A stretch of DNA of 64,000 nt from Chloracidobacterium validum (GTDB lineage Bacteria; Acidobacteriota; Blastocatellia; Chloracidobacteriales; Chloracidobacteriaceae): positions 806,001-870,000 of the forward strand of contig NZ_CP072649.1 in NCBI RefSeq assembly GCF_018304825.1. Direction: 5' to 3'. The first letter of the stretch is position 1, and each line of letters opens with the position of its first letter. Under the pieces are notes generated by a model. It was not told the DNA's origin, did not search any database, and saw only the letters and a program-made list of their open reading frames with translations. Both the position numbers and the translations under genes were made by a program. This document shows, one piece after another, positions 1,860 to 13,310 of this stretch.

Positions 1860-3212
<1,353 letters not shown>

Positions 3213-3218
3213 TCATAC

Positions 3219-3249
3219 GCCCCGCACGCTTGCCCAAAGCGTGCGGGGC
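3219..3249 (-). terminator. Perfect 13-bp hairpin between riboswitch and metY (possible attenuator)
   Basis: GCCCCGCACGCTT and AAGCGTGCGGGGC form a perfect 13-bp stem around a five-base loop. It lies between the putative SAM aptamer and the metY ribosome-binding site. On the metY strand only a weak T-rich stretch (ACTTTT) follows, several bases downstream, so this is a possible attenuator rather than a textbook terminator. Confidence 0.55.
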
Positions 3250-3266
3250 GTTCACGGTTGAATCCA

Positions 3267-3320
3267 CCGGCGCTTTAGCAGTTTTTAGCGTGGAGCAAGT
3301 TGCCTAAATCGCCACGTCAG
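3267..3320 (-). promoter_or_regulatory. Putative SAM-II-class riboswitch aptamer upstream of metY
   Basis: Read on the minus strand, the metY leader has the order expected of a SAM-II (metA motif) H-type pseudoknot. CGTGG is followed by GATTTA, a loop with GGC and TTGC, the closing strand CCACG, then CTAAA and GCTAAA. The loop GGC can pair with GCC at the 3' end (3269-3271), which would form the pseudoknot. I recognised it by comparison with the remembered SAM-II consensus, not by a covariance search. The target gene, metY, is a classic SAM-riboswitch target. The aptamer ends about 97 bases before the start codon, farther than is usual for this class. Confidence 0.72.
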
Positions 3321-3375
3321 GTTGTCAAATCATCCGTTATGACGGACGAACCATGGATGATAACGGAGACGCCTG

Positions 3376-4578
3376 TCAACCCATTCCCGTGTCGGGGACG
3401 GAATTTTCCGGCGCCGGGGGTTCACAGCGCATCACTGCCGGCAAGGTGATGGTAAAGGCCGTCCCGACGCCTTCGGTGCTCTGGACACTGGCTTGGCCGC
3501 CATGCGCGGCTGTAATCCGTTGGACGATGGCCAGTCCCAGTCCGGTTCCCAACTGGCGGGTACGTTGGCGAGCTTGGTAGTAGGGATTGAAAATGTAAGG
3601 CAAGTCTTTCGCTGGGATACCAGGGCCGGTGTCTTCGACGTGAATGACGACAAACGTTTTGCCGGCGTTGACGCCGGTGCCTTCGACCTGCTCGGCGCGC
3701 AGCGTCACCGTTCCGCCTTCAGGGGTAAACTTGACGGCGTTAGAGAGCAGATTACCAACCGCGCGCAGCATTTTGCTGCGGTCCAACAATAACGTGGGGA
3801 GGTTTGGAGCGCAGACAGTGCGCAGCGTGATCCCCTTGTGCTCGGCGGTGAGCGCAATCTGGGCGGCAGACTCCTCGATGAGTTCCCTCACAGGCACCCA
3901 GGCAAGTTCGAGTGTAGCTCCCCCAGCCTCGGCTTTCGAGAAATCCAGCACCTCATTGACCAGCTTCGTAATGTGTTCGAGCGTTCGGTAGCCGTGCTGA
4001 AAAATCTTGCGCAAGTCGTCGTCCAGGATGCCCATTTCCTCGGCGCGCATTTCCGTCAATTCAAACGCCCCGAAGACGGTCGCCAGTGGAGAGCGAATAT
4101 CGTGAACCAAAACGGCGGTGAACTCCTCGCGCTGGTGGGCGAGTTCCTCCAGTTTCGCCACGGTTTCCTGAAGTTGCGTGGCTTGTTCACGGAGTTGGTG
4201 CTTGAGTTCGTGAATTCGCAGGGCGCTGCGGACGCGCGCCAGGAGTTCCTTGGTTTCACAGGGCTTGACCAGATAGTCATCGGCGCCGGCGTCGAGGCCC
4301 TGGACTCGGTCATCCAGTTCGCCACGGGATGACAACATGATGATTTGGCTGTCGCTGAGTTTGGGATTTGCGCGAATCTGGCGGCAAACTTCCGGGCCAT
4401 CCAGTCCGGGCATGACCCAATCCAGCAGCATCACGCCTGGCAGCAATTCATTGGCCTGGCGCAGGCCGTCCTCGCCATCCGTGGCTTCAATCACGGTAAA
4501 ACCGGCCTTGGTCAGAACTTTCTTGAAAACAAGGCGGAGCGTGGCTTCATCATCTACAATCAGCACGGTACTTGACAT
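3376..4578 (-). CDS. Response regulator-histidine kinase fusion (REC-HisKA-HATPase)
   Basis: Cytoplasmic signalling protein of 400 residues. An N-terminal receiver domain (about 1-120) has the acidic pair in VDDE, phospho-acceptor Asp53 in LLDWVMPG and Lys in LVKPCE. A short coiled coil (about 122-150) follows, then a HisKA domain with His159 in VLVHDIRSPLA. The HATPase domain shows [24 protein letters not shown] and TGLGLAIVQ. The ATG at 4578 is four bases after the plsY stop, so it is probably co-transcribed with plsY. No membrane segment or output domain is present; it likely relays phosphate from another kinase. The input is unknown. Confidence 0.9.
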   Translation of the reverse strand: MSSTVLIVDDEATLRLVFKKVLTKAGFTVIEATDGEDGLRQANELLPGVMLLDWVMPGLDGPEVCRQIRANPKLSDSQIIMLSSRGELDDRVQGLDAGADDYLVKPCETKELLARVRSALRIHELKHQLREQATQLQETVAKLEELAHQREEFTAVLVHDIRSPLATVFGAFELTEMRAEEMGILDDDLRKIFQHGYRTLEHITKLVNEVLDFSKAEAGGATLELAWVPVRELIEESAAQIALTAEHKGITLRTVCAPNLPTLLLDRSKMLRAVGNLLSNAVKFTPEGGTVTLRAEQVEGTGVNAGKTFVVIHVEDTGPGIPAKDLPYIFNPYYQARQRTRQLGTGLGLAIVQRITAAHGGQASVQSTEGVGTAFTITLPAVMRCEPPAPENSVPDTGMG

Positions 4579-10039: not shown

Positions 10040-10903
10040 ATGAAAAGTCCTTTACGATACCCCGGCGGTAAATCACGCGCGCTTCACCAGATGAAATTTC
10101 TCCTGCCGCAAGCGTTTGAAGAGTACCGAGAGCCTTTCGTCGGCGGTGGATCGTTCTTTATCTACCTACGTCAGGCTTATCCACAACTGCGGATGTGGAT
10201 CAACGACCTAAACCCTGAGTTGTACTATTTCTGGAAACATGCTCAAGCTGATTCGGAAACATTGGCAAGCGAGATTCTCAAGATAAAATCCAAAAGAAAG
10301 AATGGGCAGGCACTATTCGATGAGCTGACGCGCATGGATGTTAGCGCCCTATCCGAGTTTGAAAGAGCGGTTCGTTTTTTCGTTCTGAATCGGATTACTT
10401 TCTCAGGTGTCGTTGAATCCGGTGGATACTCGAAATTGGCTTTCACTGCGAGGTTTACAGAATCTTCAATCAGGCGTGTTGCCCAAATTGGGAAACTGTT
10501 GGAAGGCATCAAGATCACCAATTCAGACTACCGTGAACTTTTACTGGATGGTGGAAAGGAAGTGTTCACGTTCCTTGATCCACCTTACTTCAAGGCGACC
10601 AAATCGAGATTGTATGGGAAAAAAGGCATTTTACATACTGGATTCAGTCACGACGAATTTTCCGTCGAAATGAGAGCCTGCAAGCATTCCTGGCTCATCA
10701 CTTACGACGACTCGCCAGAAATCAGGAATAACTTTAGCTTTGCAAATATCTACGATTGGCAACTGCAATACGGCATGAACAACTACAAGCAAGGCAGAGC
10801 AGAAAAAGGAAGCGAGCTTTTCATTGCCAATTATACGCTCCATGTCAAGCGTAAGGCCGAGAGCACCGAAGGGGAAAAATTTGAGCAACTTGCATTGATT
10901 TAG
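10040..10903 (+). CDS. D12-class DNA adenine N6-methyltransferase (Dam/DpnM-like)
   Basis: Methylates adenine in a short DNA target. The 287-residue protein has the D12-class features. These are RYPGGKSRAL at the N-terminus, the AdoMet motif EPFVGGGSFF (31-40), WINDLNPELY, NRITFSGVVESGGYSK in the middle, and the catalytic DPPY at 180-183. It is followed by a probable endonuclease and a second methylase. The target sequence cannot be read from this; Dam-like enzymes often recognise GATC, but related ones in restriction systems do not always. Base composition (about 45-48% GC) differs sharply from the neighbours, which suggests horizontal acquisition. Confidence 0.93.
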   Translation: MKSPLRYPGGKSRALHQMKFLLPQAFEEYREPFVGGGSFFIYLRQAYPQLRMWINDLNPELYYFWKHAQADSETLASEILKIKSKRKNGQALFDELTRMDVSALSEFERAVRFFVLNRITFSGVVESGGYSKLAFTARFTESSIRRVAQIGKLLEGIKITNSDYRELLLDGGKEVFTFLDPPYFKATKSRLYGKKGILHTGFSHDEFSVEMRACKHSWLITYDDSPEIRNNFSFANIYDWQLQYGMNNYKQGRAEKGSELFIANYTLHVKRKAESTEGEKFEQLALI

Positions 10904-11049
10904 TCCATTAAAGCAAAAAGCGAGCTGATGAGACACGTGCTAGGTATTTGAGGTTCCTGGGCTTTTTCGGGCCTAGTCCTGTCTTTGAAGTTTTTTCTAC
11001 TCCGAGCATTGTCCAAACCCGCTTGGGCCGAGGTAGCGTAACGGAACCA

Positions 11050-11697
11050 ATGAAATCAAAGTTGACACTTGAAATTCTCAAGACAGAAGCGCAAGTGTTT
11101 GCCGGCAAGGCACATGGCGCTCCATCGTTATATGGGGTTACTGACGGGAAAGCGATTGGTACATACGTTGAGCATCAGTTCCGGTCTCACCTCCGCGAAA
11201 AATACGACTTTCAGGAAGGAAGCTCTGCTAGTGGCATAGATTTCCCAGAACTCGAAGTTGACATGAAGGTAACAAGCATAAGGCAACCACAATCGTCATG
11301 TCCCTTCAAATCTGCTCGGCAGAAGATTTATGGACTAGGCTATTCTTTGCTTGTGTTCTTATACGAGAAGACAGATGAGCCACAAACACCTATGGGAAAC
11401 TTGAATATCTTGCACACACTTTTCGTCAGCAAAGAGCGAACGGCAGACTTTCAGACCACCACAGGTCTCCGTCAAATCCTCGAAAACAAGGGTAACCAGG
11501 ATGACATCTTGGCGTTCATTGAAGAACGCAGGCTTCCGGTAGATGAGATTGAGGCATCGGCACTAGCCCGCGAAATTCTTACCACCCCCCCTGAGATCGG
11601 TTATCTTACCATCTCGAATGCCCTGCAATGGAGACTTCAATATAGCCGAGTCATCGAGAGGGCCGGTTCGGCTGCGGGGGTTGAAAGACTAAAATAG
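11050..11697 (+). CDS. Probable type II restriction endonuclease, PD-(D/E)XK fold
   Basis: A 215-residue protein. GIDFPELEVDMKVTS holds Asp64, Asp71 and Lys73 in the arrangement of a PD-(D/E)XK nuclease active site, and RQPQSSCPFKSARQKIYGLGYSL follows. I recall similar stretches in type II restriction enzymes but cannot name a characterised one. Its place between two adenine methylases strongly supports the role. The ATG at 11050 is chosen over an upstream TTG. The stop is immediately followed by the next gene (TAGTGATG). AT-rich like its neighbours. Confidence 0.8.
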   Translation: MKSKLTLEILKTEAQVFAGKAHGAPSLYGVTDGKAIGTYVEHQFRSHLREKYDFQEGSSASGIDFPELEVDMKVTSIRQPQSSCPFKSARQKIYGLGYSLLVFLYEKTDEPQTPMGNLNILHTLFVSKERTADFQTTTGLRQILENKGNQDDILAFIEERRLPVDEIEASALAREILTTPPEIGYLTISNALQWRLQYSRVIERAGSAAGVERLK

Positions 11698-11699
11698 TG

Positions 11700-13310
11700 A
11701 TGCGTGATCAGAAACAACGCAAAGCCGAATTCGGGGATTTTCAAACGCCCATCAGATTGGCCAGGGCAATTTGCTCCCTCATCGCCCGGATTGGTTTTCA
11801 TCCAGTTTCAATTCTTGAGCCAACTTGTGGAACAGGTTCATTCCTCGAAGCATCGTTAGAAACATTCCCAAGTGTGCGGCACGCGGTCGGCTTCGATATT
11901 AATCCGCAATACGTGGCGCAAGCGCGACAGGCTATTGCACACAGACGGCTGGGCGCATCGGTTGAAGTTCGCCAGTCTGATTTCTTCCTTACGAATTGGT
12001 CCGAGATCGGTGAAGCTTTACCTGAACCTATCCTTATCATAGGCAATCCGCCTTGGATAACGAATTCAGCATTGGGTATTTTGAATAGCAACAATGTTCC
12101 GACGAAATCAAACCTCGACAATTTCCGCGGGATTGACGCGCTCACTGGTAGGAGCAATTTCGACATTTCCGAATGGATGATTAGGCGGAACATCGAATGG
12201 CTCAACGGTAGAAATGGCTTACTCGCCATGCTTTGCAAAACAGCAGTAGCGCGTAAAGTTCTTTTATACGCCTGGCAAAAGAGGGTATGCCTTGAGTCAA
12301 CATCGATTTATGTCATTGATGCCCAGGAATACTTTGGGGCTTCAGTTGATGCCTGCCTTCTGTTGGTCCGAAGCAATCCGACCAACCGCCATGAGGAACG
12401 TAAGACATGTCCTGTTTTTCGTTCCATCTATGCGCAACAGGCCGATAGTGTGTTTGGTTTTGAAGATGGAATGCTCGTTGCCGATGTCAAGGCATACCTG
12501 ACCTGGAAAGACCTTGCCGGGGCCGGCTTCAAGGGCTGGCGGTCAGGCATCAAGCATGATTGCAGCAAGGTCTTCGAGCTGCGGGTTGAACAAGGAGACT
12601 TTGTTAACGGCTTCGGGAACTTTGTTGAGCTTGAACCCCAAGTATGCTTTCCCTTGCTAAAAAGCTCTGATCTCGCTGCCCAGGCTAGGAAGCCGTCTCG
12701 GTATATGGTTGTGCCACAGCGGACCATGCGTGATGACGTTAGCCGTCTCAAGTTAGATGCTCCCAAGACGTGGCAATACCTTACCGAACACGCATATCTT
12801 TTGGACAAACGGAAGAGTTCAATATACAGAAACCGTCCGCGATTTTCGATCTTTGGTGTTGGACCCTATTCATTTGCTCCATGGAAAATTGCTATCTCCG
12901 GTTTATACAAGAAACTTGAATTCGTCCAGGTGTCACCTTTTCAGGGAAGCCCGGTGGTTCTTGACGACACCTGTTATTTCCTCCCCTGTCAGTCGGAAGA
13001 AGCGTGCAATCTATTGTACGAATTGGTTACCTCCGCCCCTGCCAAGGCGTTTTGGTCAGCCTTGATTTTTTGGGATGCAAAGCGGCCGATTAGCGCGCAA
13101 CTTCTCAATCTGCTCGATCTCAGGGCTCTTGCCCGACGCTTGGGAAAAGAGCGTGAAAGTGCGCAAATACTTACAGAATGGCAACTTTTACAATACCCGG
13201 AGCGAGCTTCTCAGCGCCTCCTTTTCAGGGAAGAGACCACCGAGGATGAGGGTGAGTTGGGCACGAATGAAACTGAAACTGCCGGCCACCCAACCGGCGC
13301 TCTCACCTGA
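11700..13310 (+). CDS. DNA adenine N6-methyltransferase, Eco57I/TaqI-like (NPPW)
   Basis: A 536-residue gamma-type adenine methylase. It opens with AEFGDFQTP, then AdoMet motif I ILEPTCGTGSFLEAS (38-52), GFDINPQYV and catalytic motif IV IIGNPPWI (113-120). The long C-terminal half, with VVPQRTMRDD and other conserved-looking stretches, would hold the target-recognition domain. It begins right at the stop of the endonuclease gene, so the pair is translationally linked. No nuclease motif is evident in this protein, so it is probably a methylase only. Confidence 0.87.
   Translation: MRDQKQRKAEFGDFQTPIRLARAICSLIARIGFHPVSILEPTCGTGSFLEASLETFPSVRHAVGFDINPQYVAQARQAIAHRRLGASVEVRQSDFFLTNWSEIGEALPEPILIIGNPPWITNSALGILNSNNVPTKSNLDNFRGIDALTGRSNFDISEWMIRRNIEWLNGRNGLLAMLCKTAVARKVLLYAWQKRVCLESTSIYVIDAQEYFGASVDACLLLVRSNPTNRHEERKTCPVFRSIYAQQADSVFGFEDGMLVADVKAYLTWKDLAGAGFKGWRSGIKHDCSKVFELRVEQGDFVNGFGNFVELEPQVCFPLLKSSDLAAQARKPSRYMVVPQRTMRDDVSRLKLDAPKTWQYLTEHAYLLDKRKSSIYRNRPRFSIFGVGPYSFAPWKIAISGLYKKLEFVQVSPFQGSPVVLDDTCYFLPCQSEEACNLLYELVTSAPAKAFWSALIFWDAKRPISAQLLNLLDLRALARRLGKERESAQILTEWQLLQYPERASQRLLFREETTEDEGELGTNETETAGHPTGALT

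Follow-up and report, generated by a model that had tools for sequence, protein, structure and literature searches.

The metY leader of Chloracidobacterium contains a real, diverged SAM-II riboswitch, as judged from sequence comparison, and most likely acts as a transcriptional OFF switch in which a terminator and an antiterminator would mediate feedback repression by SAM, the presumed ligand of the aptamer. SAM-II aptamers, SAM-II terminators and tandem SAM-II arrangements are already known; what is new here is the clade, the sub-threshold form of the aptamer and the register of the antiterminator.

The host genome consists of two replicons of 2.66 and 1.00 Mb, and the leader lies in a window of 64,000 nucleotides, i.e., the whole stretch of DNA analyzed here. 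On the minus strand of this window, NCBIfam matches bear out the metY-metX-aspartokinase operon proposed in the initial annotation: metY (1860–3170; O-acetylhomoserine sulfhydrylase, TIGR01326, 682 bits for a cut-off of 495), metX (637–1761; homoserine O-acetyltransferase, PRK00175, 372 bits for a cut-off of 331), whose listed start is a TTG and whose true start may lie further downstream, and the N-terminal part of an aspartokinase (2–640; partial matches) that continues past the window edge. Read from 3318 on the same strand, the leader runs GACGTGGCGATTTAGGCAACTTGCTCCACGCTAAAAACTGCTAAAGCGCCGGTGG and then enters a hairpin at 3251–3217, so that the order of elements is aptamer, hairpin, weak U-run, Shine-Dalgarno sequence and the metY ATG at 3170. 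The Shine-Dalgarno sequence, GGGAGG (3180–3185), is located downstream of the hairpin and not in the aptamer. Directly upstream of the leader, on the same strand, is a histidine-kinase gene (4752–3376) with its stop codon at 3378–3376. About 50 nt on the 5′ side of the aptamer (3330–3379, minus strand) are strongly conserved within the genus and comprise a TTGACA that overlaps the kinase stop codon, CTCCGTTATC, the palindrome TCCGTCATAACGGA, and TTGACAACC adjoining P1. This block is possibly an unusual promoter or operator; a promoter scan found no sigma-70 promoter 5′ of the aptamer, and the conserved upstream palindrome TCCGTCATAACGG was rejected as a regulon operator, as it is not enriched genome-wide, where it has 15 matches and the reversed control has 27. 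Elsewhere in the window, three consecutive plus-strand genes (10040–13310) look like a restriction-modification operon; they encode a D12-class adenine methyltransferase, a protein of 249 aa that has no Pfam match and a methyltransferase-like protein of 537 aa.

When 1 kb was searched against all of Rfam, the SAM-II model RF00521 matched the metY leader with 23.1 bits (E = 0.0095), and since this score is below the gathering cut-off of 36, a gathering-threshold Rfam scan of the window lists nothing. The leader can be read as a diverged member of the family because this cut-off is a curation threshold and no structural feature. No other site in the 3.66-Mb genome matches RF00521 as well. A clade model was rebuilt with the window's own family left out to prevent circularity, and it scores the leader at 67.1 bits, with a genome-wide E-value of 1.2e-12, the next genomic match reaching 17.7 bits. 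The SAM-II class assigned in the initial annotation from motifs alone is thereby upheld, as is the acidobacterial host. The covariance check against RF00521 that it had proposed gave a divided answer, i.e., a score below the cut-off at the best-matching site of the genome, and is equivocal without the relatives because RF00521 alone stays below its cut-off. Among 39 relatives, RF00521 exceeds its cut-off in 11 and gives some match (E up to 0.5) in 34, and the aptamer is present in all six congeners, hence in seven genomes of the genus. Other families were considered and rejected: the SAM-II long loop model RF01726 matches more weakly (19.3 bits, E = 0.75, cut-off 44), and the SAM-V and SAM/SAH models, also put forward in the initial annotation, give no covariance-model match up to E = 5 here. 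The clade model finds no second SAM-II copy in the host genome, including at its own metH-type gene (C1:422453) and at its best thrC relative (C1:2306553), and no SAM-I (RF00162) match in this genome comes close to the cut-off of that model.

The model match spans 3260–3318 on the minus strand, and the complete set of SAM-II core elements is found within 3316–3267. These are the 5-bp P1 stem CGTGG/CCACG (3316–3312 with 3293–3289), L1 with GATTTA (3310–3305), the two pocket cores TTGC (3298–3295) and GCTAAA (3279–3274), and the 3-bp pseudoknot P2a, GGC/GCC (3304–3302 with 3271–3269). The motifs CGTGG, GATTTA, CCACG and GCTAAA thus occur in the order originally described (3316–3274), and the loop-tail pairing of GGC with GCC, then only suspected, is P2a and shows both-side changes in relatives. 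In a sequence-based alignment of 44 distinct aptamers, GTGG, TTGC, CCAC and CTAAA are invariant. P1 is paired in 99.5% of cells, its outermost pair varying between CG, AU and UG, and P2a, which has only 3 bp, is paired in 87.9% of cells; two of its three pairs have changed on both sides (variants AGC/GCT, AAC/GTT and GAC/GTC). The window has all the bases of P2b and all those that form the SAM-pocket triples seen in the crystal structure (G8-C23-G42, U11-U21-A45 and U12-U20-A46; PMC3764141), and none of them varies in the alignment; being invariant, the P2b pairs are uninformative on pairing either way. One further candidate, pair 30–42 of alignment A1, was discarded as an extra aptamer pair, since it fails in eight sequences, mostly with an inserted base, which is probably a register effect.

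The hairpin that follows the aptamer (3217–3251, minus strand), identified by scan, folding and compensatory changes, has 15 pairs, 11 of them G-C, around the 5-nt loop TGGGC, with a predicted stability of -30.7 kcal/mol. The initial annotation had recognized it as a perfect 13-bp hairpin, which was right as to its existence and too short as to its length, and had placed it about 100 bases from the start codon; its end lies 47 nt from the metY ATG, and the figure of about 100 holds for the gap between aptamer and ATG. Across the genus and its sister genus, the stem is 96.9% paired and 5 of 12 pairs show compensatory changes, which is well beyond what slid controls give and indicates that the hairpin is under selection. 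Of 134 related leaders, 113 have such a hairpin, with -10 kcal/mol or better and a start no more than 60 nt from the aptamer, and in 109 of the 113 five or more T lie around the end of the stem. In the window, the U-run ATGACTTTTG (3207–3216, minus strand) is short and begins about 5 nt past the stem. The corresponding tails are TTGCTTTTTG in two congeners and TTTTGCTTTTG in the sister genus, i.e., the U-run is weak in Chloracidobacterium and canonical at the same place in relatives. Because of this difference from the sister genus, it appears to have been eroded or displaced in the genus, and its weakness leaves some doubt on termination there. The host's own terminators, taken as a genome-wide yardstick for U-runs, yielded only nine qualifying sites, which were mixed and too few to conclude from. 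Altogether, the hairpin is most likely the terminator of the SAM-II switch.

The connection between aptamer and terminator is provided by a putative antiterminator whose 5′ strand, CUAAAGCG(C)CGG (3267–3278, minus strand), overlaps both the GCUAAA of the ligand pocket and the 3′ strand of P2a, and whose 3′ strand is contained in the 5′ arm and loop of the hairpin. Specifically, CUAAAGCG (3278–3271) can pair with CGCUUUGG (3241–3234) and CGG (3269–3267) with CCG (3246–3244). As its strands are shared with GCUAAA/P2a and with the terminator arm, this pairing can coexist neither with the ligand-bound aptamer nor with the terminator. For transcripts cut at the terminator loop, the minimum free energy structure consists of P1 plus the antiterminator in the window, in three congeners and in the sister genus. 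Taken by itself, the window's contiguous 8-bp match falls short of significance when compared with shuffled sequences (p = 0.07). In the genus plus its sister genus, 97.7% of antiterminator cells are paired, with a mismatch in two congeners, and in the sister genus one antiterminator pair has changed in step with the terminator pair that overlaps it (columns 10, 50 and 63 of alignment A3, from C, G, C to A, U, A). The apex motif UUU[AG]G occurs in 65% of 81 SAM-II terminators versus 13% of 77 other hairpin-plus-T-run sites at the same loci, a rough control in that the background includes a few antisense or aptamer-derived hairpins. Aptamers pair better with their own terminators than with swapped ones (p = 1e-4, in a test that ignores shared ancestry), and in 38 of 56 unique cases the base following GCUAAA fits its partner at the apex, as compared with a mean of 23.9 and a maximum of 36 over 10,000 permutations that likewise ignore phylogeny.

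The aptamer, the hairpin, their conservation and compensatory changes, the pairing potential of the antiterminator, its class-wide enrichment and its covariation were computed directly, and they lead to the following model, in which switching itself, as well as termination at a hairpin with so weak a U-run, is presumed. The nascent leader would fold P1 first. As long as SAM is absent, the aptamer would leave its 3′ strand (CUAAAGCGCCGG) free to pair with the 5′ arm and loop of the terminator, and the resulting antiterminator, in which CUAAAGCG and then CGG lie on CGCUUUGG and CCG, would prevent nucleation of the terminator, letting the polymerase continue into metY-metX-aspartokinase. With SAM, GCUAAA and the 3′ strand of P2a would be held in the ligand-bound pseudoknot, and locking this strand would allow the 15-bp terminator to form and turn the operon off, so that methionine synthesis would be repressed by its end product. 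Because the antiterminator duplex (-16.5 kcal/mol) is far weaker than the finished terminator, switching would need kinetic control, presumably with the antiterminator covering the bases from which the hairpin nucleates. Transcription attenuation, as suggested in the initial annotation, is supported by the class-wide terminator hairpins and the enrichment and covariation of the antiterminator, and the alternative given there, a two-part device, gives way to one ordinary riboswitch composed of aptamer plus terminator. A broader version of the model, for which the chances seem about even, is that acidobacterial SAM-II switches throughout the class have a distinct expression platform, in which the SAM-contacting GCUAAA itself serves as the antiterminator strand and prevents hairpin nucleation by pairing with the terminator apex, ligand binding and antitermination competing kinetically for the same nucleotides.

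The same leader could be explained by a genuine SAM-II aptamer next to a hairpin that it does not switch, the hairpin being a constitutive attenuator, an mRNA-stability element or a roadblock, and SAM acting elsewhere, e.g., on Rho or RNA stability. The displaced, weak U-run of the genus and the far greater stability of the terminator relative to the antiterminator would fit this explanation, as would the metA SAM-II leader of S. meliloti, whose riboswitch was not predicted to control the terminator there (PMC9373788). However, it is unlikely in view of the class-wide, covarying pairing between the aptamer 3′ strand and the terminator apex, and of the canonical U-runs that relatives carry at the same place. 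Masking of the ribosome-binding site upon SAM binding, the way in which the Sargasso Sea metX riboswitch works and the best understood of the SAM-II mechanisms (PMC9373788, PMC10907184), is highly improbable here, as the only good Shine-Dalgarno sequence (3185–3180) lies about 80 nt past P2a, behind the 15-bp hairpin and wholly outside the pseudoknot. Equally improbable is that the hairpin merely terminates the histidine-kinase gene, which does end directly 5′ on the same strand, and is unrelated to the aptamer, since the hairpin pairs with the aptamer and trails it in relatives regardless of the target gene. Finally, chance resemblance without any riboswitch, to which the sub-threshold RF00521 score and the weak matches (E up to 10) in 14 of 14 control genomes might point, is refuted for practical purposes by the leave-family-out score and the genomic uniqueness of the match, and also faces conservation in seven genomes of the genus and a class-wide family of such aptamers 5′ of methionine genes. 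The preferred reading is the SAM-responsive terminator-antiterminator switch.

The aptamer is one of a larger group present in nearly a whole class: the clade model is positive in 54 of 396 Acidobacteriota genomes. Chloracidobacterium is placed in the class Blastocatellia by the NCBI taxonomy, and in the relatives' clade, to which this class name is applied by inference, 44 genomes are positive and only three listed genomes lack a match. The other ten positives, many of them weakly scored, are spread thinly over about 350 genomes of other classes, to which unlisted genomes were assigned from the ordering of the table. Downstream of 134 leaders are 69 metH-type genes (the representative tested is a bifunctional homocysteine S-methyltransferase/methylenetetrahydrofolate reductase), 28 metY and 20 thrC, with rarer cases of two DinB-like genes, two NirA-like reductases and single genes including metX, aspartokinase (lysC) and metK, the last with a weak aptamer match; the names DinB-like, metX, aspartokinase and metK were here read from the sequence alone. 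The targets metY, metH-type, metX, lysC and thrC fit a SAM-II switch. At L093 and L139 the aptamer precedes the nitrite/sulfite-reductase-like (NirA family) gene, which suggests SAM control of sulfur assimilation. A metH-type subgroup of aptamers (L009–L014, L017 and most metH-type leaders) often replaces the GATTTA of L1 by GAGTTA and has GG/GA inserted 5′ of the P1 3′ strand. Nine loci carry two aptamers 116–161 nt apart, mostly each with its own terminator and nearly all at thrC (L015, L016, L018, L020, L022, L023, L026 and L031), the ninth being L019, where the chosen ORF resembles a short-chain dehydrogenase.

Corbino et al. 2005 (PMC1273637) described SAM-II from alphaproteobacteria, from a small number of other proteobacteria and from the Bacteroides group, and the parts of the literature compared name alpha-, beta- and gamma-proteobacteria and Bacteroidetes, with Acidobacteriota not named among the hosts. 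A text search for SAM-II and Acidobacteria, thin in its coverage of subscription papers, returned no paper on the subject; above-threshold acidobacterial members should already figure in Rfam-based annotation. The present results point to widespread methionine regulation by SAM-II within one class of Acidobacteriota, outside the host groups named in the literature compared. They also imply that much of the SAM-II in this class is overlooked at standard Rfam cut-offs, including in a probably phototrophic genus. The clade-wide extent and the antiterminator model, which gives a concrete, mutable scheme for coupling SAM-II to a terminator where the main papers on transcriptional SAM-II offer, in the parts consulted, little detail, are the aspects worth following.

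Like RF00521 SAM_alpha, typified by the Agrobacterium metA element, the window's aptamer combines P1, a U-rich L1, the UUGC/GCUAAA pocket and the P2 pseudoknot, and it is located 5′ of methionine genes with a terminator downstream. It differs in a P2a of only 3 bp, shorter loops, a score 13 bits under the Rfam cut-off, an acidobacterial host and an antiterminator that extends into GCUAAA itself. The fold of the long loop family RF01726 is the same, with a weaker match. The initial annotation took a terminator in place of ribosome-site masking as a departure from the usual; putative terminators do, however, follow many SAM-II aptamers (PMC1273637 and PMC2258182). In S. meliloti metZ, SAM-II is likewise followed by a Rho-independent terminator in a predicted OFF switch before a homocysteine-synthesis gene, and there, unlike here, the mechanism is based on Northern blots and reporters (PMC9373788). 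The 44 tandem SAM-II pairs listed in PMC9481103 resemble the relatives' nine loci in having two complete SAM-II plus terminator units, whereas the window has a single one. Lastly, pairing between aptamer and terminator is also present in 74 alphaproteobacterial leaders, where it is centered on the P2a 3′ strand and the following bases: taking the G of GCUAAA as 0, it occupies positions 7–13 in alphaproteobacteria versus 1–9 in Acidobacteriota, and the latter range therefore includes GCUAAA. Judging from these positions, the alphaproteobacterial and acidobacterial platforms appear to share a common design with a shifted register.
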